50,979 nt of DNA, from contig JAFIEL010000007.1 of assembly GCA_020832585.1 (NCBI GenBank), positions 1 through 50,979 of the forward strand. Direction: 5' to 3'. The position numbers were made by a program, and so were the translations under genes. The stretch is from Natronohydrobacter sp. GTDB taxonomy: Bacteria > Pseudomonadota > Alphaproteobacteria > Rhodobacterales > Rhodobacteraceae. This document shows positions 14,516 to 23,897 of the stretch, piece after piece. Under the pieces are notes generated by a model. It did not search any database, was not told the origin of the DNA, and worked only from the letters and a program-made list of their open reading frames with translations. Numbering within the stretch: the stretch's first letter is position 1; each line of letters begins with the position of its first letter.

Positions 14516-14589
14516 GCACAGGTGCCGCAAGACCGGGCAACGATGTCGCAAACATGGTTGCCGAATCTGATTGATCGGCGTAGTCAGGA

Positions 14590-14770
14590 TATAGCTTTGG
14601 TCTGGATGTTCACGCATCCGGTAATAGGGAACTGCGGTGCGCAGCATCTTGCTGCAATTCCGTGACTGCCCCCGCAACTGTAGGCGGCGAGCGATGTCGG
14701 CATATGCCACTGTGGCCTCGGTCATGGGAAGGCCCGGCAGAGCGATGACCCGCAAGTCAGGAGACCTGCC
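14590..14770 (+). ncRNA. Cobalamin riboswitch
   Basis: The 5' untranslated region of the uptake operon contains the conserved cobalamin aptamer elements in order: AATAGGGAA (about 14623-14631), GTGACTGCCCCCGCAACTGTA (14662-14682), GCCACTG (14706-14712), ATGGGAAGGC (14724-14733) and the B12 box AAGTCAGGAGACCTGCC (14754-14770). Bound adenosylcobalamin normally shuts expression off. It lies 75 bp after zapE and 150 bp before the receptor start. Boundaries are estimated from the motifs. Confidence 0.95.
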
Positions 14771-14920
14771 AAAGTGATCACCCTATCCCGGCGCGGGTGG
14801 CGTTGCGGGTAACGGTTCCAACCGTAGCGGTGACATCCCTCGCCGTCTGCGGTGCGCCTGCATCCGCCAGACATGACTTCTGATCACGGCCCTTGGATGG
14901 GCCGCAATAGGGTGTTGCAG
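14771..14920 (+). promoter_or_regulatory. Leader between aptamer and receptor gene (possible expression platform)
   Basis: This 150-nt leader contains two possible stems: the near-palindrome ACGGTT-CC-AACCGT at about 14811-14824, and GGCCC (14888-14892), loop TTGGAT, GGGCC (14899-14903), which ends 17 nt before the chosen ATG. No U-run follows, so control of translation is more likely than termination. In-frame ATGs at 14852 and 14873 could extend the receptor but would place the second stem inside the coding region. Confidence 0.4.
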
Positions 14921-16801
14921 ATGCAAGACACGATTCTGAGGCTATGCGCCTCGACCGCGCTGGTGGGCGCTCTCGCTTTCCCCGCAAGCGCACAGCAGAT
15001 CATCAATCTGGAAGAAATCACGTTTTCGGCGAATCTGACCGCAACGGAGATTGCGCGCAGCGGCGCGTCCGTCAGCGTCGTGACCCGCGAAGACCTAGAT
15101 GCAGCGGGCGCGATTCAACTGGTCGATTACCTGTCGCGCCTGCCCGGTGTCACGGTGACACAGAATGGTGGTCTTGGCGGATCGGCAAGCCTGCGCATCC
15201 GCGGGGCCGGGCCGGAATATGTCGCGGTCTATGTCGATGGTATCCGCGTGGATGACCCATCATCGCCGCAGACCGCTTTCAACTTTGGCACGCTGACGAC
15301 TGCGGATATTGGGCGCATCGAAATCTTGCGCGGCTCACAATCGGCGCTCTATGGCGGGTCTGCCGTAGGGGGTGTGGTCAACATATCGACCCTTGGCGCG
15401 ACGGAAGACGGAGTCACGCAGAGCCTGCAACTGGAGGCCGGAAGCCACCGGACCTATCTGGCCCGCTACGGGATTGCCTTTCGTGATGACCGCTTTGAAG
15501 CGGCGGTCAATGTCAGCCATGTGCGCTCGCGAGGGTTCTCGGCGTATGAGCCGTTTCCGGGCGCTCCGGGCCTGACACCGGACGGGTTGGAAGCCAGCCG
15601 CCTGAGTTTCTCTGGCCGCTATCAACTGACCGATGAGACCGCTTTGGGGTTGTCGGGCTTCTATCAGACGAGTGACTCCGAATTCGACAACTTTGGCGCA
15701 GATGCAGATAACCTGCTTAAACGGCGCGAATATGGTCTGCGCGTTTTTGGGGAATATGCCACCGGAAACACGACGCATGAGTTGAGCGCCACGCTTTACG
15801 ACATGAGCCGCGAAGCGTTTCAGCCGCGCGGTGTCTCTGCGGGCGAATTCGAAGCACGGCGGTTGAGTTTTGCCTACAAGGGCATCACCGAACTATCCCC
15901 TGCGCTGACCTTGATCTATGGCGCGGACACCCAGAACGAGAGCATCACTGTGCGCGGGCAAGGACCGGACAGCACCCGCGTGTCAGGTGTGTTCGGGCAG
16001 GCCCTCTGGACGCCGCGCGCGGATCTTGACGTATCGGCCACTGTGCGGGCAGATCGCAATTCCGGTTTTGGCACATTCTATACAGGCCGGATCGCCGCTG
16101 CCTGGCAGGCGACAGATGGGCTGGTGCTGCGCGGCGCAGTCGGGCGCGGGTTCCGTGCGCCCTCCATCAATGAACAGCTTGGCAACCCGGTCTGGGGTAT
16201 TGCGCCCAATCCTTCCCTTGAGCCTGAAACCAGTGTCAGCGCCGAGATCGGTGCCGATTACCGCTTCGCGAATGGGGCAGAAATCAGCACGACGCTGTTT
16301 CAACTGACGACCGATAACGCGATCACCTATTGCGCGCTGGCGCCGGGGGCCTGGGGCCCGACCTGTCCGAACGCAGGGCCGGCGGGGTTTGAAAACCATT
16401 ACCAGAATATCGCTGGCAAGACCCGCCGTCGTGGGTTTGAACTGGGCGCGGTTGTGCCCGTGACAGACGCGCACCGGCTCGACATTGGCTACACCTACAC
16501 CGATGCCCGAAATCCCAGCGGGGCGCGACTGGCACGCATCCCGCGCCATGATCTAAATCTGGGTCTGCGGTCAGAATGGAACGAGCGCGTCAGCTCGACG
16601 ATCAGCTTGCAGCATCTCGCAGGCCGCACCGGCAACATGCCCAGCTATTCGGTTGTGAATGCTGGGATTCGCTACCGGGTGAATGATCACGCCGATCTGT
16701 CCTTGCGGGTTGAGAACCTGTTCAACAAGCAATATCAACAGATTGCAGGCTATGGCACGTCTGACAGGGCCTTCTACCTTGGCGTTGCGTCGCGCTTCTA
16801 G
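14921..16801 (+). CDS. btuB: TonB-dependent cobalamin receptor BtuB
   Basis: This is a 626-residue outer-membrane receptor. It has a signal peptide (about 1-23, LCASTALVGALAFPASAQQ), a TonB-box-like LEEITFSA, a plug domain (about 40-145: SVSVVTREDLDAAGAIQLVDYL, LRIRGAGPEYVAVYVDGIRV, IEILRGSQSALYG) and a 22-strand-type beta barrel ending YLGVASRF with the terminal aromatic residue. The preceding cobalamin riboswitch and the following btuFCD genes make vitamin B12 or another corrinoid the substrate. The start at 14921 gives a normal signal peptide. Confidence 0.92.
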   Translation: MQDTILRLCASTALVGALAFPASAQQIINLEEITFSANLTATEIARSGASVSVVTREDLDAAGAIQLVDYLSRLPGVTVTQNGGLGGSASLRIRGAGPEYVAVYVDGIRVDDPSSPQTAFNFGTLTTADIGRIEILRGSQSALYGGSAVGGVVNISTLGATEDGVTQSLQLEAGSHRTYLARYGIAFRDDRFEAAVNVSHVRSRGFSAYEPFPGAPGLTPDGLEASRLSFSGRYQLTDETALGLSGFYQTSDSEFDNFGADADNLLKRREYGLRVFGEYATGNTTHELSATLYDMSREAFQPRGVSAGEFEARRLSFAYKGITELSPALTLIYGADTQNESITVRGQGPDSTRVSGVFGQALWTPRADLDVSATVRADRNSGFGTFYTGRIAAAWQATDGLVLRGAVGRGFRAPSINEQLGNPVWGIAPNPSLEPETSVSAEIGADYRFANGAEISTTLFQLTTDNAITYCALAPGAWGPTCPNAGPAGFENHYQNIAGKTRRRGFELGAVVPVTDAHRLDIGYTYTDARNPSGARLARIPRHDLNLGLRSEWNERVSSTISLQHLAGRTGNMPSYSVVNAGIRYRVNDHADLSLRVENLFNKQYQQIAGYGTSDRAFYLGVASRF

Positions 16802-17609
16802 AACCCTTGCTGCAGCCCTTGCCCTTTGGGCCGGGGCCGCGGTTGCGGGGCCACCCGAAAGGGTGGTCTCGATCAATCTGTGCACGGATCAACTTGCAAT
16901 GCTGCTGGCGGCACCGGGGCAACTGGTCTCGATCTCGCGGATTTCGCATGATCCGAATGTTTCGGTCATGCTGGAAGAGGCGCGGCGATACCCCATCAAT
17001 TACGGGCAGGGCGAGGAAGTGTTCCGCCTGTCGCCTGATCTGGTGCTCGCGGGGGCCTTTACCTCGTCCTACACGGTCGGCTTGCTGCGGCGGTTGGGGG
17101 TCGAGGTGGCGCAATTGCCGATTGCCAATTCGCTCGACGCCATCCCCGGCAATATCCGCGAAGTGGGCCTCCTGCTGGGCCGCGAGGTCGAGGCCGAGGT
17201 CGTGGTGGCGCAGTTCGAGGCCGATCTTGCGAGCCTGCGCGCCGACCGCGACCGCGCCACACGCGCGGCACTGCATTACGCCAATAATTACACATCGGGC
17301 GAAAACTCACTTGCGCATGAGATTCTGACGGCGGCGGGGTTCGCCAATATCGCTGCCGAAGCCGGGCTGTCCGGGGGCGGCACGCTGGCGATGGAGCGGC
17401 TGGTGATGCTGATGCCCGATCTGGTGATCTCTGGCCAGCCTTATCCGGGCGCCTCGCGCTCCGAAGAGGTGTTGCGCCATCCCGCGATGGAGGTGCTGCG
17501 CGACCGTCATGCGGCCCATGCGCTGGCCGATGCCGAATGGGTCTGCGGCACGCCTGCTGTTTTGCGCGCGATTGCGCGGCTGGTGGATTTGCATGAGGGC
17601 GGATCATGA
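16752..17609 (+). CDS. btuF: Periplasmic corrinoid-binding protein (BtuF-like)
   Basis: The protein of about 285 residues has an N-terminal secretion signal (TLAAALALWAGAAVAG) and a class III (TroA/FhuD/BtuF) binding-protein fold: PPERVVSINLCTDQLAMLL, LSPDLVLAGAFTSSYTVGLLRRLG, then the linking helix and MERLVMLMPDLVISGQP. It would hand corrinoid from BtuB to BtuCD. The start is either ATG 16752, inside the end of btuB, or TTG 16779, which gives a shorter, more usual signal peptide. Its TGA overlaps the next ATG (ATGA). Confidence 0.87.
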   Translation: MARLTGPSTLALRRASRTLAAALALWAGAAVAGPPERVVSINLCTDQLAMLLAAPGQLVSISRISHDPNVSVMLEEARRYPINYGQGEEVFRLSPDLVLAGAFTSSYTVGLLRRLGVEVAQLPIANSLDAIPGNIREVGLLLGREVEAEVVVAQFEADLASLRADRDRATRAALHYANNYTSGENSLAHEILTAAGFANIAAEAGLSGGGTLAMERLVMLMPDLVISGQPYPGASRSEEVLRHPAMEVLRDRHAAHALADAEWVCGTPAVLRAIARLVDLHEGGS

Positions 17610-18592
17610 CGCGCGCGCTGTTGCCCCTGCTTGGCGTGACGGTCGCGGTGCTTTTTGCGGCGTCACTGATGATCGGCCCGGCAGGGCTGGCACCTGTGCA
17701 GGCGCTTTCGGCGCTGATCCGAGGAGATGCGCTGGCCGAAACGCTGGTGATGCGCGAAATCCGCCTGCCGCGCGCGATTCTGGCCGTTCTGGTGGGGGCC
17801 GCGCTGGGGCTGGCCGGGGCGGCCTTGCAGGGGTATTTGCGCAACCCGCTGGCAGAACCGGGGCTGATCGGTGTCTCTGGCTCGGCGGCGCTGGGCGCGG
17901 TGCTGGCGCTACAGAGCGGTTTCGCGGCCCTGCATGTGCTGGCGCTGCCCGGTGCGGCACTGCTGGGCGCGGTGTTGGCGGTTCTGGTCATCCTTGCGCT
18001 GGCTGGGCCGCGCGGTGGGTCAATCACACTGATCCTTGCGGGGATTGCGGTTTCGGCGCTTGCGGGCGCGTTGACATCGCTGGTGCTGAACCTGTCGCCA
18101 AACCCCTTCGCGGCCTCTGAAATCGTGTTCTGGATGATGGGCTCGCTGCAAGACCGTTCGATGACCCATGTCTGGCTGGCCGTGCCCTTTATTGCGCTGG
18201 GGGCTATGGTGCTGTTGGCGCAGGGTCGCAAATTCGATGCGCTGACGCTGGGCGAGGATGCGGCGGCCAGCATGGGCGTGCATCTGGGACGGTTGCGGTT
18301 GGCGCTGGTGCTGGGCGTGGCCTCGATGGTGGGGGCGGCCACGGCGGTTGCGGGGGCCATCGGGTTCGTCGGACTGGTCGTGCCGCATATCTTGCGTCCG
18401 CTGGTCGGCGCGCAGCCCTCGCGGCTGCTGCCTGCTTCGGCGCTGGGGGGCGCGGTGCTGGTGCTGATGGCCGATATTGCCGTGCGGGTCATCCTGCCGA
18501 CGCGTGATCTGAAGCTGGGGGTGCTGACCGCCATCGTGGGGGCACCGCTTTTCCTGCATCTGATCTACAAGACACGGGCGCAGGGGCTATGA
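17606..18592 (+). CDS. btuC: Corrinoid ABC transporter permease (FecCD family)
   Basis: The 328-residue inner-membrane permease of the FecCD/BtuC family has about ten hydrophobic helices. Family motifs include LRLPRAILAVLVGAALGLAGAALQGYLRNPLAEPGLIGVSG near the N-terminus and AVAGAIGFVGLVVPHILRPLVG, the loop that contacts the ATPase. It overlaps btuF and btuD by 4 nt on either side, so it is part of the same transcript. The riboswitch and CbiZ point to a corrinoid substrate rather than a siderophore. Confidence 0.9.
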   Translation: MTRALLPLLGVTVAVLFAASLMIGPAGLAPVQALSALIRGDALAETLVMREIRLPRAILAVLVGAALGLAGAALQGYLRNPLAEPGLIGVSGSAALGAVLALQSGFAALHVLALPGAALLGAVLAVLVILALAGPRGGSITLILAGIAVSALAGALTSLVLNLSPNPFAASEIVFWMMGSLQDRSMTHVWLAVPFIALGAMVLLAQGRKFDALTLGEDAAASMGVHLGRLRLALVLGVASMVGAATAVAGAIGFVGLVVPHILRPLVGAQPSRLLPASALGGAVLVLMADIAVRVILPTRDLKLGVLTAIVGAPLFLHLIYKTRAQGL

Positions 18593-19344
18593 GCGGGCTG
18601 GCACTCACTGATTTCAGCGTTGCGCGCGGGCCTTGCGATGTGTTGCAGGGGCTGTCTCTGCAGTTGGGCGCGGGCGAATGTGTCGGGCTGCTGGGACCGA
18701 ACGGGGCGGGCAAGACGACGCTGATGCGCGCGGCGCTGGGGCTGATGGCACATCGTGGGCGGTCGTCGCTGTCCAGCCTGCCACTGGCGGAGCGCGCGAA
18801 AACCGTCGCCTGGCTGCCACAAGCGCGCGAGATCGCCTGGCCGGTGACGGTTGAAACCCTGATCGCACTGGGGCGGTTGCCGCATCTGGGCGCGGGCACG
18901 CGGCCCGGTGCCGAGGATCAGGCCGCGATTGACAGCGCGATTGCGCGCATGGGGCTGGAGGCGTTCCGCACGCGCATTGCCACGCAGCTTTCGGGCGGCG
19001 AACAGGCGCGGGTGCTGATCGCGCGCGCTCTGGCGCAGGATACGCCCATGCTGATGGTCGATGAACCGGCGGCGGGCCTTGATCCAGCGCATCAGATCAC
19101 CTTGATGGACGTGCTGGCCACCGAGGCGCGGGCGGGGCGGATGGTGCTGGCCTCGATGCATGATCTGGGGCTGGCGGCGCGCTATTGCACGCGGGTCGTG
19201 GTGCTTTCGCGCGGCGGGATTGCCGCTGATGGGCCGCCGGCGCAGGTGCTGACGCCGGACCTGCTGGCGCGGGTGTTCCAGATCAGGGCGCATATCGCTG
19301 ACGGGCCGGACGGGCCGATCCTGCAACCGGTGGGGGTGGTATGA
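18589..19344 (+). CDS. btuD: Corrinoid ABC transporter ATPase
   Basis: The 251-residue ATPase has Walker A GPNGAGKT at 36-43, Q-loop LPQAREIAWPVTVE, signature LSGGEQARVLIARAL, Walker B MLMVDEPAAGLD and switch His in LASMHDLG. It belongs to the iron/B12 importer ATPase subfamily and pairs with the preceding permease. Start and stop overlap the neighbours by 4 nt. Confidence 0.9.
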   Translation: MSGLALTDFSVARGPCDVLQGLSLQLGAGECVGLLGPNGAGKTTLMRAALGLMAHRGRSSLSSLPLAERAKTVAWLPQAREIAWPVTVETLIALGRLPHLGAGTRPGAEDQAAIDSAIARMGLEAFRTRIATQLSGGEQARVLIARALAQDTPMLMVDEPAAGLDPAHQITLMDVLATEARAGRMVLASMHDLGLAARYCTRVVVLSRGGIAADGPPAQVLTPDLLARVFQIRAHIADGPDGPILQPVGVV

Positions 19345-20039
19345 GCGTGGTTCTGGACGTTCCCTGGCTGGAGTTCGATCTGGGCCGCGACATGCAGGTG
19401 CTGAGCTGGGCACCGCATGGGGCAGGCTACAGGCGGGCGCGGCGGTTGATCTGGCGGCAGGTGCGCAACGCCGATCTGCCGGAAGGGCTGGATGTGGGCG
19501 CATGGTTGCGCGCAGAACTGGCCACGCGCGGGGCGCTGGAGGCGGTTGTCATGCTGACCTCGCGCGATGTGGGGGCGCATCATCTTGGCCGCGCATGTAT
19601 CAACGGGGTCGAGGTGACGGCACTTGCCACGGTCGGGCTGTCCAATGCCGAGCGCGTGGGGCACCGGGTGGACCGCTCCGGGCGCGACTGGAACCGCGAT
19701 CTGGCGCAAGAATTGCGCGCGCGGGAATTCGGGACCATCAATATCGGACTGCGGATTGATGCGCCGCTGTCGCAAACCGGGCTGTTGGAGGCGTTGAGCA
19801 TTGCCACGCAGGCGCGCACCACGGCGATACTGGAAGCGGGCCATGTGCTGCCGGACCTGTCGGGGCTGGCCACGGGGACCGGCACGGATTGCATTGCCGT
19901 CGCCGCCCCGGAAGGCACGAATGACTATGCCGGGCTGCATACAGCAGTCGGACAGGCCATCGGGCAGGCCGTGTTGCAGGCCGTGAGTGAAGGCGCGCGC
20001 GACTGGCAGGCGACAATCGGGCAAATCAGCGGGGGGTAG
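19341..20039 (+). CDS. cbiZ: Adenosylcobinamide amidohydrolase CbiZ
   Basis: CbiZ cleaves the amide bond of adenosylcobinamide (and of pseudo-B12 in Rhodobacter) to cobyric acid, so that a foreign corrinoid can be rebuilt with the cell's own lower ligand. The 232-residue protein shows the family segments VVMLTSRDVGAHH, TVGLSNAERVGH, INIGLRIDAPLS and the C-terminal GLATGTGTDCIAVAAP then YAGLHTAVGQAIGQAV. There is no signal peptide, so it acts in the cytoplasm. Its place right after btuD links import to remodelling. Confidence 0.88.
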   Translation: MSVVLDVPWLEFDLGRDMQVLSWAPHGAGYRRARRLIWRQVRNADLPEGLDVGAWLRAELATRGALEAVVMLTSRDVGAHHLGRACINGVEVTALATVGLSNAERVGHRVDRSGRDWNRDLAQELRAREFGTINIGLRIDAPLSQTGLLEALSIATQARTTAILEAGHVLPDLSGLATGTGTDCIAVAAPEGTNDYAGLHTAVGQAIGQAVLQAVSEGARDWQATIGQISGG

Positions 20040-20043
20040 AGAG

Positions 20044-20670
20044 ATGGACAGCGCGGCATTGGCGGAATTTCTGGCACGCGGCGGGCCTGCGCTCTGGGTA
20101 ATCGCGGCGCTTTCCGTGCTGACAGCGGCGCTGATTGTCTGGAAGTTCTGGGATCTGGCGCGATTAGGGGCATGGTCGCGCGGCCCGTCAGAGGCGGCAG
20201 TTGCCGCGTGGCGCTCTGGCGAGGGCGATGCGGCGCTTGCCCGACTTGCAACGCGCAGGGGCTTGCGCGCGCGGGTCAGCCGGCGCGCGATGGAAACGCG
20301 GATGGGTGACATGCCAGAGGCCGCAGCGCGCGAGGAAACCCAACGCGTGGGCAAACTTGCGCTGATGGAGGCACGACGCGGCCTGCGCGCATTGGAACTG
20401 ATCGCGACGATTGCGCCGCTGATCGGGCTGTTGGGCACGGTTCTGGGCATGATCGAGGCGTTTCAGGCCCTGCAGGCGGCGGGCAACCGGGCTGATCCGG
20501 CTGCATTGGCCGGGGGGATCTGGCAGGCGCTGCTGACCACGGCGGCGGGCATGGCCGTGGCCATTCCGGCGGCGATGGCGCTGACATGGTTTGAAAGCAT
20601 CTGTGACCGGGTGCAGGTCGATATGGAAGATTTGGCGACGCGCATCTTCACCGCACAGGGGGCGGGGTGA
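20044..20670 (+). CDS. exbB: ExbB/TolQ-type proton channel protein
   Basis: The 208-residue inner-membrane protein has three hydrophobic segments at about 14-34, 118-140 and 155-180. LELIATIAPLIGLLGTVLGMIEAF and WQALLTTAAGMAVAIPAAMAL are the MotA/TolQ/ExbB channel helices. It forms the stator pentamer that uses the proton gradient to energise TonB. The start is ATG 20044 just after cbiZ, preceded by a G-rich ribosome site. The riboswitch operon context indicates service to BtuB. Confidence 0.9.
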   Translation: MDSAALAEFLARGGPALWVIAALSVLTAALIVWKFWDLARLGAWSRGPSEAAVAAWRSGEGDAALARLATRRGLRARVSRRAMETRMGDMPEAAAREETQRVGKLALMEARRGLRALELIATIAPLIGLLGTVLGMIEAFQALQAAGNRADPAALAGGIWQALLTTAAGMAVAIPAAMALTWFESICDRVQVDMEDLATRIFTAQGAG

Positions 20671-21053
20671 TGTTCTGTTTTGCCAGCCCCCGGCCTGCGC
20701 GCAGGCCCAGCCTGACACCGATGATCGATGTGGTGTTCCTGCTGCTGGTCTTCTTCATGCTGGCCGCGCGGTTCGGGCAGGATGTGGGGCTGACGCTCGC
20801 CCCGGCAGGCAGTGACGGCGAGCGCTATGAAGGGCCGCCGCGGCTGGTGGAATTTGATGCAGAAGGGCTCTGGCTGAATGGCGCGGCCATAGCGCGAGAG
20901 GATTTGGCAGACGCTCTGGACGCGCTGATGCCCCACCCGGAGGCGCTGGTCATCCTGCGCCCGCGCGACGGTGCCAATGTGCAGGATCTGACGCGGCTGA
21001 CTGAGATGTTGCAAGGCGCGGGGATTGCGCGGGTTGTGGTGATGGAGCCATGA
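20670..21053 (+). CDS. exbD: ExbD-type protein 1 (keeps the proton-carrying Asp)
   Basis: The 127-residue ExbD/TolR protein has a short cytoplasmic N-terminus, one transmembrane helix (about 18-37) and a periplasmic domain. The helix motif PMIDVVFLLLVFF contains Asp20, equivalent to the essential proton-carrying Asp25 of E. coli ExbD. GTG 20667 would also be in frame, but ATG 20670 overlaps the exbB stop by one base (TGATG) and is preferred. The gene is followed by a second ExbD. Confidence 0.88.
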   Translation: MFCFASPRPARRPSLTPMIDVVFLLLVFFMLAARFGQDVGLTLAPAGSDGERYEGPPRLVEFDAEGLWLNGAAIAREDLADALDALMPHPEALVILRPRDGANVQDLTRLTEMLQGAGIARVVVMEP

Positions 21054-21442
21054 GCGCGCTGGATTTCAATTTGCCCGCCCGCAAGCCACCGCGCGAAAGC
21101 GTGGTGCCGATGATCAATGTGGTGTTCCTGCTGCTGATCTTTTTCCTGATTAGCGCGCAGATCGCCCCGCCCGATCCGGTCGAGATCACGCCGCCCGTAG
21201 CCGATAGCGAGGCCCCCTTGCCGGAGGCTGCGCGGGTGGCCTGGCTGGATCGCGAGGGCATCGTGCATTTCGACGGATTGAGCGGAGACGCGGCTTTTGC
21301 GCGACTGACTGACGCGCCCGGAGCCGTGACATTGCGGGCGGATGCGGCCCTGTCTGCGGCAGAATTTGCCCAGATCCTGCGGACCTTGGGAGAAGCGGGG
21401 CTGCGGGATGTGACGCTAGTCGCGACTGCGGGGACACCATGA
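21050..21442 (+). CDS. ExbD-type protein 2 (Asn replaces the conserved Asp)
   Basis: This 130-residue ExbD-family protein overlaps the first by 4 nt. It keeps the ExbD layout (N-terminal LPARKPPRESVVP, helix at about 21-40, periplasmic domain), but its helix reads PMINVVFLLLIFFLIS: codon AAT at 21116-21118 gives Asn23 where ExbD/TolR proteins have Asp. Asn cannot carry a proton, so this subunit should not work alone in proton flow. A mixed ExbD1/ExbD2 dimer is an obvious possibility. Everything else looks intact, which argues against simple decay. Confidence 0.85.
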   Translation: MSALDFNLPARKPPRESVVPMINVVFLLLIFFLISAQIAPPDPVEITPPVADSEAPLPEAARVAWLDREGIVHFDGLSGDAAFARLTDAPGAVTLRADAALSAAEFAQILRTLGEAGLRDVTLVATAGTP

Positions 21443-22251
21443 GGACGGGGCTTGAATTCGCGGGGTTCGCTTCTGTCTCGCTGGTGGCGCATCTGGCTGT
21501 CTTTTCGGCAACGGCACCGGATGGCATGGCCTCGGGCGGCGAGGGTGGCGCAGAGGCTGTGACGATTGCAGCACCGATCGCGGGCGCGGATGCAGAGCTT
21601 GCAGCACTTGTGCGCCAATGGGATGCCCCTGTGCAGATGGTCGAGCCTGCTGCGCCGCCTGCAGCACCTGCCGCCCCTGAGCCTGCGCCCGAACTGGCCG
21701 CCCCCCGGATCGACGCGCCCGGCTTGCCATCCAGCGCGGCGCTTAACGCCCCCAGTGCCGAGCCCGCACCGCAGATCGTCGCAGAGGTTCCGCAGCTGTT
21801 CACGATGCCCACGACACGCGAGACCCCGCGCCCACCCCCACGCCCTGAGCCGAGACAAGCCGCCCCTGCCCCGCGCGCCAGCCAGCAGGCTGCACCGCGT
21901 GCCGCGCGCGCGGCCGGGCAAGGCGCGCAGGCGCAGCGCGGCGAGGGGCGCGCGGCGCAATCGAGCGGCACGGCCCCGAGTGCCAGCCAGATGGCGCAAT
22001 GGGGCGGCGCGATCCGGGCTGCGATCCAGCGTCGCCAGAGCCGACCCGCGACCCGCGCACGCGGCACGGTTCATCTGCGATTGCAGGTCAGCGCAGAGGG
22101 GCGGCTGGTCAGTGTCAATGTCGCGCAAGGGTCCGGAAATGCTGCATTGGATCAGGCCGCCTTGCGCGCTGTGCAAGGGGCAAGCCTGCCGCGCGCGCCA
22201 GCGGGGATCAGCGGGACCCATCATTTCAACTTGCCGCTGAACTATCAGTAA
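21439..22251 (+). CDS. tonB: TonB family protein
   Basis: The 270-residue protein has an N-terminal membrane anchor (about 6-27), a long Ala/Pro-rich periplasmic spacer (about 65-180) and a C-terminal TonB domain (about 183-270: QWGGAIRAAIQRRQ, ARGTVHLRLQVSAEGRLVSVNVAQGSGNAALDQAALRAV). It transmits energy from ExbB/ExbD to the outer-membrane receptor. It is the last gene of the riboswitch operon, and its ATG overlaps the second exbD stop. Its operon position suggests dedication to BtuB. Confidence 0.88.
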   Translation: MRTGLEFAGFASVSLVAHLAVFSATAPDGMASGGEGGAEAVTIAAPIAGADAELAALVRQWDAPVQMVEPAAPPAAPAAPEPAPELAAPRIDAPGLPSSAALNAPSAEPAPQIVAEVPQLFTMPTTRETPRPPPRPEPRQAAPAPRASQQAAPRAARAAGQGAQAQRGEGRAAQSSGTAPSASQMAQWGGAIRAAIQRRQSRPATRARGTVHLRLQVSAEGRLVSVNVAQGSGNAALDQAALRAVQGASLPRAPAGISGTHHFNLPLNYQ

Positions 22252-22265
22252 CAGGCAGGAGCGCG

Positions 22266-22979
22266 TCAGGTCTCGCCTTTCGGTGCCATACTATGCAGCG
22301 CTTCGCGCAGGGCTGAGACAGGCATGGGCGCTTCGGACAGGCGCAATGCGGATTCAAGATGCTCAAGGTGATGCGCCATCTCGTGGCAGGCTTGGCTTTC
22401 ATCGCGCGCCTCGATGGCCACGACGATGCGGTCATGTTCATCCGGGCCGCATGTCTGTGTGGCCTGTGTCTGATACATGGCGGTGATCAATGACGTACGG
22501 ATGGTCAGCATGCGCAGGATTTTCAACAGCAATTCGGCCCCGGACAGCTTGGCAATCAGCATATGAAACTCGCCGGACAGGCGAATCACAGCTTCGCTGT
22601 CGCCGCGCGCATGGGCAGCGCGTTCCTGGGCGATATGGTCGCGCAGCGTGGCGATGTCTTCCGGGCTGGCACTGCGGCACAGGCGCGTGACGAGACGCTG
22701 TTCGATCGCCAGTCGGGCAGAGAAGGCGTCCTGCGCATCCTCGACGCCGGGTTCAGCGATGCAGGCCCCGCGATTGGGATAGATCGTCACCAGCCCATCC
22801 TGTTCCAGTATGGCCAGCGCCTGTCGCACACGCGCGCGGGTGGTGCCGAATATCTCGGTGAGTTCCTCTTCCTTGAGCCGCGCGCCGGGACGCAGCGTAC
22901 GCTGCACCACTGCAAGCCAGATCCGGTCACAGATCAGGTTGATAAGCTCATTCTTCGTGCTGTGCGTCAGCCAGGGCAT
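22266..22979 (-). CDS. GntR-family regulator with FCD domain
   Basis: The 237-residue repressor-type regulator has an N-terminal winged helix (about 10-75: LKEEELTEIFGTTRARVRQALAILEQDGLVTIYPNRG) and a C-terminal FCD ligand domain (about 85-215) with metal-site candidates in GEFHMLIAKLSG and DEHDRIVVAIEARD. It is divergent from the racemase gene. The inverted repeats in that gap and before the peptide-importer gene fit a GntR operator, so I infer it controls both units. The ligand could be an amino acid or carboxylate, typical of FCD domains. Confidence 0.88.
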   Translation of the reverse strand: MPWLTHSTKNELINLICDRIWLAVVQRTLRPGARLKEEELTEIFGTTRARVRQALAILEQDGLVTIYPNRGACIAEPGVEDAQDAFSARLAIEQRLVTRLCRSASPEDIATLRDHIAQERAAHARGDSEAVIRLSGEFHMLIAKLSGAELLLKILRMLTIRTSLITAMYQTQATQTCGPDEHDRIVVAIEARDESQACHEMAHHLEHLESALRLSEAPMPVSALREALHSMAPKGET

Positions 22980-23062
22980 AAGGGTTCCTCAGTCGCCGAG
23001 CGTCATATCGGTTTCGAGCGGCAATGACAAAGGGCTTTGCGCAACCAGTTTCTTTCCCCAAA

Positions 23063-23086
23063 ATTGTTGACAATATCGTTGACAAT
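23063..23086. promoter_or_regulatory. Tandem GntR-type operators before the racemase gene
   Basis: ATTGTTGACAAT (23063-23074, ATTGT and ACAAT arms around TG) is followed without a gap by ATCGTTGACAAT (23075-23086). Both lie in the 171-bp gap between the divergent gntR-type gene and the racemase gene. The same dodecamer occurs before the peptide-importer binding-protein gene. Confidence 0.65.
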
Positions 23087-23150
23087 ATTGCGTCATGGGA
23101 TTTCCCGCGATACACTGATAAGGTGCTCATTCCTGACTGAAGGGACAGTC

Positions 23151-23897
23151 ATGCAGCTTTTCGTCTATAACCCGAATTCCAGTCGCGAAATGACCGCCCT
23201 GATCGCGCGGTCTGCTGAAGCTGCTGCAAGTCCGGGCAGTCAGATCGTGACCGATTGCGCCCGCCCGCCGGTGCCGCCCAGCATTGAGGGGCATCATGAT
23301 GAAGCCGTGGCCGTTCCCGCGATGCTGGATGCGCTGCGCCGGGCAGAGGCCGAGGGTGCGCAGGCCCATGTCATTGCCTGTTTCGATGATCCCGGCATCG
23401 GGGCTGCGCGTGAAGTGGTGGCCGGACCTGTCATTGGCATTGCGCAGGCTGCCATGCAGGTGGCGAGCATTCTGGCCGCGCGCTATTCGGTCGTGACCAC
23501 CCTGCCGCGCGCCATTCCGATCATCGAGGATCTGGCCGTCCGCTACGGCGCAACCCACGGATTGCGCCGGGTGCGCGCGGTCGATCTGCCGGTGCTGGGG
23601 ATTGAGGCCGACCCGGAGCGCGCGAAGTCCCTGCTGCTGGGTCAGATTCTGGCCGCACGGGATGAAGACGGGGCCGAGGCGGTCATCTTGGGGTGTGCGG
23701 GCATGTCCGATATGTGCCATGCGCTGTCCATCGAAACCGGCCTGCCGGTGATCGATGGTGTGCACGCGGCAGTGCGTCTGGCAGAGGCGCTGGCCGGAGG
23801 GGGCTACCGCACCTCGAAGGTTGGGGCCTATGCCTGGCCGCGCGACAAATCGAACGATCTCATTCACGCGACACCTCTGCGTCGCCCCGCCGAATGA
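23151..23897 (+). CDS. Asp/Glu/hydantoin racemase family protein
   Basis: The 248-residue protein belongs to the cofactor-independent Asp/Glu racemase superfamily. It has the two catalytic cysteines: Cys77 in HVIACFDDPG and Cys182 in VILGCAGMSDM. The start MQLFVYNPNSS and the first-Cys motif CFDDPG are like hydantoin or allantoin racemases (HyuE type) rather than MurI. ATG 23151 follows AGGGACA; the frame is open further upstream across the operator region, which I exclude. No hydantoinase or carbamoylase gene is nearby, so the substrate remains open. Confidence 0.83.
   Translation: MQLFVYNPNSSREMTALIARSAEAAASPGSQIVTDCARPPVPPSIEGHHDEAVAVPAMLDALRRAEAEGAQAHVIACFDDPGIGAAREVVAGPVIGIAQAAMQVASILAARYSVVTTLPRAIPIIEDLAVRYGATHGLRRVRAVDLPVLGIEADPERAKSLLLGQILAARDEDGAEAVILGCAGMSDMCHALSIETGLPVIDGVHAAVRLAEALAGGGYRTSKVGAYAWPRDKSNDLIHATPLRRPAE

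Follow-up and report, generated by a model that had tools for sequence, protein, structure and literature searches.

Can a Ton motor run on a single proton-carrying residue? In the canonical TonB-ExbB-ExbD complex of E. coli and Serratia (ExbB5-ExbD2), a single kind of ExbD forms a homodimer with an Asp on both shafts, and rotary models have these two Asp used in turn, with 36 degrees per proton (PMC9022066, PMC12905483). The window analyzed in this work, a stretch of 50,979 nucleotides from a Natronohydrobacter sp. contig, carries two consecutive exbD genes, the first encoding the expected Asp and the second an Asn at the same place.

The vitamin B12 operon and its ExbD pair

The exbD genes belong to a tightly packed plus-strand operon with the order btuB-btuF-btuC-btuD-cbiZ-exbB-exbD1-exbD2-tonB, located downstream of a cobalamin riboswitch (14581..14787, plus strand; Rfam RF00174, 127 bits with a gathering threshold of 31.5). 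The first gene encodes a BtuB-like TonB-dependent receptor (14852..16801) whose Pfam barrel and plug domains score above cut-off; the coordinates are those of the longest open reading frame, and the true start is probably further in. Its best NCBIfam match, at 240 bits, is the vitamin B12 receptor model TIGR01779, for which the equivalog cut-off is 599.7. The genes that follow encode a BtuF-like periplasmic binding protein (16683..17609, the longest open reading frame, overlapping btuB; Pfam PF01497, 53.5 bits), a BtuC-like permease (17606..18592; Pfam FecCD, 286 bits), a BtuD-like ATPase (18589..19344; Pfam ABC_tran, 88.8 bits) and the adenosylcobinamide amidohydrolase CbiZ (19341..20039; Pfam CbiZ, 161.9 bits). 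The motor genes complete the operon: exbB (20044..20670; Pfam MotA_ExbB, 96.8 bits, cut-off 22.9), exbD1 (20670..21053), exbD2 (21050..21442) and, as the last gene, tonB (21439..22251; Pfam TonB_C, 37.9 bits, and NCBIfam TIGR01352, 51.6 bits, both above cut-off). exbB and exbD1 overlap through TGATG and exbD2 and tonB by 4 nt, and the 4-nt overlap of the two exbD genes reported in the preliminary description was found to be ATGA. A gene for a GntR/FCD-type regulator lies on the minus strand directly after tonB (22266-22979), and is followed by a plus-strand open reading frame (23037-23897) whose product we take to be racemase-like. A B12 operon of this kind, likewise containing cbiZ and an Asp/Asn exbD pair, is present on the Phaeobacter inhibens plasmid pP72_b (L292), which is typed as conjugative; two further ExbD2 proteins used as queries against plasmids returned one record and none, respectively.

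ExbD1 (127 amino acids) has a basic N-terminus and the motif LTPMIDVVF with Asp20 (GAT, 20727-20729), while ExbD2 (130 amino acids) has the motif VVPMINVVF with Asn23 (AAT, 21116-21118); the positions and codons given earlier for both residues are exact. A profile of ExbD2 relatives aligned with the E. coli ExbD of PDB 6TYI places Asn23 at residue 25, and Asp20 likewise occupies the place of E. coli Asp25, as the preliminary description had proposed. Its statement that the second protein is intact also holds, ExbD2 having a complete Pfam ExbD domain (57.8 bits; 59.0 bits for ExbD1; cut-off 25.4). Both proteins score below the NCBIfam equivalog cut-offs for ExbD (TIGR02803, 152.95) and TolR (TIGR02801, 127.3), with 31.5 and 21 bits for ExbD1 and 19.6 and 22.6 bits for ExbD2. 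ExbD2 has, in addition, Glu16 (21095-21097) at position −7 counted from Asn23. The operon thus supplies a MotA/TolQ/ExbB domain, two ExbD/TolR domains, a TonB C-terminal domain and a receptor, as expected for a Ton motor. The Asp25 equivalent that canonical homodimeric ExbD has in every chain is found in one chain only.

The ExbB of the window resembles canonical ExbB at its pore, having equivalents of E. coli Pro141, Thr148, Thr181 and Pro190 (numbering from PMC8599685 and PMC12215075). Among 216 ExbB proteins encoded beside Asp/Asn pairs, both Thr are present in every case and each Pro in 214. The window ExbB has Gln161 (20524-20526) at the place of Glu176, a residue termed essential in PMC8599685; the 216 ExbB proteins have Glu at this place in 165 cases, Gln in 18 and other residues in 33 (51 without Glu). 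This substitution, which close relatives of the window share, was considered as a change accompanying the Asp/Asn pair and was dropped, since the place varies beside Asp-only ExbD as well. An SxxxH motif of TonB, sought by regular expression, was discarded too, with matches in 90 of 218 cases and doubtful ones among the examples.

No other Ton-type ExbD was found in the genome of the window, which is 86.6 percent complete; the search recovered only a true TolR, encoded in a ybgC-tolQ-tolR cluster whose TolR, TolQ and YbgC products all score above curated cut-offs. The same genome has one match to the TonB-dependent receptor family (PF00593), the BtuB of the operon, and its only detected Ton motor appears to be dedicated to B12. 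In a one-contig genome (G101) the ExbD matches comprise an Asp/Asn pair and one canonical Asp gene only, with three receptor matches located more than 1.5 Mb away. Judged from this gene content, the apparent status of sole motor, taken together with PMC9022066, implies that the Asp/Asn motor must be functional and not a spare. Another genome, of 100 percent completeness (G210; L350/L262), contains an Asp/Asn exbB-exbD1-exbD2-tonB operon and no PF00593 receptor match; the operon neighbors encode ETF-QO, a TPR protein, a GHMP kinase and a polyprenyl synthetase.

Distribution and ancestry of Asp/Asn pairs

Relatives of the pair were collected by genome searches reaching up to phylum level. Among 295 genomes of the same family, 150 had an ExbD2 match at E 1e-6; 89 of the listed places, mostly the best-scoring, were read, and 88 of them encode Asp/Asn and one Asp/Asp. 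Asp in sister genomes would have pointed to a private mutation in the window. We rejected such a mutation, as well as a sequencing error, since the Asn23 equivalent is conserved in relatives and recurs in independent assemblies and in a cultured Phaeobacter inhibens strain. The same pair turned up in further families, and in three genomes of other classes (G897, G804 and G793; L225, L240 and L244), when 385 alphaproteobacterial genomes and 397 from the phylum were searched. A scan of named genome records gave Asp/Asn in 80 of 80 for the best 80 of 495 loci, a count that is biased and proves little alone, one of the two peptide patterns used having contained the Asn.

Collapsing 259 pairs from loci L001-L271 left 229 distinct tandem pairs: 218 are Asp/Asn, ten Asp/Asp and one Asp/Ser, with no case of Asn/Asp or Asn/Asn. 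The loci were found mostly with Asn-type queries, so that 218 of 229 overstates the share of Asp/Asn pairs (11 of 17 in the census described below). The profile seed was picked by a motif allowing Asp or Asn only; the read-out allows any residue, and found a Ser. One locus (L138) was left out of the alignment (A2) because of a stop-codon error, and one tandem pair that escaped the profile (L264) stands outside the 229; read apart, it has Asn first and Asp second. The Asp/Asn pairs span 32 family codes, two of them in other classes, as well as the named families Roseobacteraceae and Paracoccaceae. No Asn-type gene without an Asp-type neighbor was present among the genes counted for the 229 pairs. 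The Asn codon is AAC in 139 and AAT in 79 of the 218 pairs, so that the residue stays constant as its codon changes. This supports the earlier reading of the second gene as being under selection, its Asn being retained next to a partner of Asp type. Two genomes have two Asp/Asn pairs each, in one of them (G604; L208) on opposite strands within 9.3 kb of one contig, the other being G303.

A less biased sample was provided by a census of 57 alphaproteobacterial genomes, in which every match to the general Pfam ExbD family was read. The 105 ExbD/TolR genes recovered comprise 71 unpaired genes, all with Asp, and 34 genes forming 17 tandem pairs, of which 11 (in ten genomes, that of the window included) are Asp/Asn and six Asp/Asp. 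All 11 Asn genes are the second gene of a tandem pair. The chance of their all falling on the 17 second-of-pair places among 105 is 5e-11, or 4e-10 without the genome of the window, shared ancestry being ignored in both figures. Five of the six Asp/Asp pairs (G298, G306, G308, G319 and G332) have the motif D-(V/I)-(M/L)-L-V, which is also present in the TolR of the window's genome and in E. coli ExbD; in four of these five tonB was read upstream, as in Xanthomonas-type operons. In the sixth (G297) tonB is downstream.

Gene order around the 218 Asp/Asn pairs is uniform, exbB being upstream in 216 and tonB downstream in 197, upstream in none and not read in 21. The tonB-exbB-exbD1-exbD2 operons of Xanthomonas and Sphingobium share with the window two adjacent exbD genes, one exbB and one tonB, but have tonB upstream, belong to another branch of the tree and encode Asp in both chains, whereas in the window tonB is last and the second ExbD has Asn. 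Both Asp were read in five loci of this type (L252, L255, L256, L259 and L263), and the two Sphingobium proteins have each retained Asp25 according to the authors (PMC8599685). Tandem exbD genes are also present in Stenotrophomonas (PMC11002078). The AglR-AglQ-AglS proteins of Myxococcus and their Glt/Agl-like relatives likewise combine one ExbB/MotA-like with two ExbD/TolR-like proteins; unlike the window pair, AglQ and AglS both carry Asp, and their work is gliding, not nutrient uptake. Whether they form a heterodimer is described as an open question (PMC9389320). Glt-type gliding genes were absent from the ten gene products scanned around the window pair, the other eight being the receptor, ABC uptake components, CbiZ, ExbB, TonB and the GntR regulator. 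TolQ-TolR-TolA is a homologous 5:2 motor but has a TolR homodimer with Asp, and the window's genome has a separate ybgC-tolQ-tolR set. A published Asp/Asn ExbD pair was not found among the open-access matches listed, as represented by titles, abstract openings and passages.

A tree of 198 ExbD proteins, built without the Asp/Asn column, separated 80 of 83 ExbD1 and 80 of 83 ExbD2 proteins of Asp/Asn pairs into two groups with modest support (85 and 81). Four exceptions fall inside the Asn group, three from Asp/Asp pairs (L199, L221 and L242) and one from the Asp/Ser pair (L214), and show that Asn is no absolute requirement. For L199, L221 and L214 the second gene adjoins an Asn-type relative with 95 to 97 percent SH-aLRT, which reads as reversion, while L242 is weakly placed. 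A further Asp/Asp pair of the same gene order (L253) lies outside the Asn group. The tree needs eight changes of state and contains many weak forks; one origin of the Asn is likely, with a lower chance of several gains, and the residue probably became established early, with a few later losses.

In another class, genome G677 (L349:9853-10858) encodes a divergent exbB-exbD-exbD-TonB-like set near TPR genes, with Asn first and Asp second. By direct comparison the Asn of its first ExbD falls on Asp25 of E. coli ExbD, the TonB-like gene is a weak match, and the set is perhaps Agl/Glt-like. This one case, of opposite order, hints at a possible repeated origin of one-site ExbD pairs.

A juxtamembrane acid divides the two chains

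The two ExbD chains of Asp/Asn pairs differ in a second feature. An acidic residue at positions −9 to −4 from the Asp/Asn place is present in 205 of 218 ExbD2 and in only six of 218 ExbD1 proteins, and the mean net charge over positions −12 to −4 is +3.3 for ExbD1 and +1.0 for ExbD2. The −9 to −4 stretch contains an acid in 29 of 32 unpaired genes and in 11 of 14 genes of Asp/Asp pairs from other branches. A canonical chain thus usually has both the membrane Asp and the juxtamembrane acid, while each chain of an Asp/Asn pair usually keeps one of them. The acid is absent from both chains in eight of 218 pairs. Where ExbD2 is without it, ExbD1 has it in 5 of 13 pairs, compared with 1 of 205 otherwise (Fisher p = 2e-6); an ancestry-aware test of this reciprocal switch, with three usable independent pairs, gave a median p of 1. 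At the level of sequence the switch is a hint of compensation within one complex.

The proposed motor and its alternatives

We consider it probable, at roughly two chances in three, that the pair represents an old, selected, heteromeric Ton motor, its most likely composition being ExbB5-ExbD1-ExbD2 with one protonatable site on the shaft. The heterodimer is deduced from the co-occurrence of the two genes, their overlap, their complementary signatures and their apparent status as sole motor. ExbD1 and ExbD2 would form one shaft inside the ExbB pentamer, which would then have one protonatable site in the membrane where the canonical shaft has two. In MotB, replacement of Asp by Asn has served to imitate protonation (PMC9022066), and by this analogy ExbD2 may act as a fixed, protonated-like shaft. 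With lesser confidence, its Asn would be a permanent mimic of protonated Asp and ExbD1 the only proton carrier. The alternating two-Asp, 36-degree model cannot apply to an Asp/Asn shaft; each proton passing via Asp20 might instead produce a power stroke every 72 degrees, or a stroke back and forth, a geometry that is speculative. The juxtamembrane acid of ExbD2 could anchor the N-terminus of this chain in the ExbB cavity and so fix the roles of the two chains. Against a one-site motor counts the inactivity of E. coli ExbD D25N (PMC11658791), though both chains were mutated there.

The two proteins might instead form separate homodimers, ExbD1/ExbD1 being the proton-driven motor and a non-conducting ExbD2/ExbD2 serving as a brake, an ExbB reserve pool or a periplasmic partner that binds TonB. 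Both are complete ExbD domains, and Xanthomonas takes up iron without requiring its second tandem exbD, so that separate jobs are possible (PMC3551730). We regard this arrangement as unlikely: the signatures of ExbD1 and ExbD2 are complementary rather than independent, and the Asn-type gene was never seen alone among the genes counted for the 229 pairs. Results on tandem genes elsewhere may point in the same direction. Deletion of either tandem Ton exbD of Myxococcus xanthus led to similar developmental defects, with PopC secretion reduced but not abolished (PMC6434023), and neither tandem exbD of Sphingobium could be disrupted, although that pair is Asp/Asp (PMC8599685). An improbable alternative has the juxtamembrane Glu/Asp at position −7 of ExbD2 replacing the lost Asp in proton transfer, both chains then working in turn. 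The bias of the acid towards ExbD2 is what this reading would predict; yet unpaired Asp-type ExbD/TolR proteins mostly have the acid too, which is unlike a replacement, and the acid lies ahead of the membrane helix, within the N-terminal part located in the cytoplasmic ExbB cavity in E. coli structures (PMC12215075). That ExbD2 is a decaying copy, or its Asn an accident of one genome or one assembly, has a negligible probability given the near-constancy of the residue in distinct pairs, its silent codon changes and the several sources of the sequences.

The heterodimeric, one-site motor may extend well beyond the window. The odds are evenly balanced that a whole branch of Ton motors has a heterodimeric shaft with a single proton site, that strict two-Asp alternation is unneeded in 5:2 motors, and that the two carboxylates of a canonical chain have been divided between two subunits. 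If one site suffices, rotation need not alternate between two sites; should the chains fail to pair, they would represent a new class of ExbD subunit that conducts no protons. The Asp/Asn motor is a natural, widespread and ready-made test of two-Asp rotation in Ton, Tol and flagellar stators, which is still debated, and for structural studies the pair gives an otherwise pseudo-symmetric complex a shaft dimer that is defined and can be oriented. Retained in many bacterial families, the mismatched pair may form a naturally occurring Ton motor with one proton site, where two were believed necessary.
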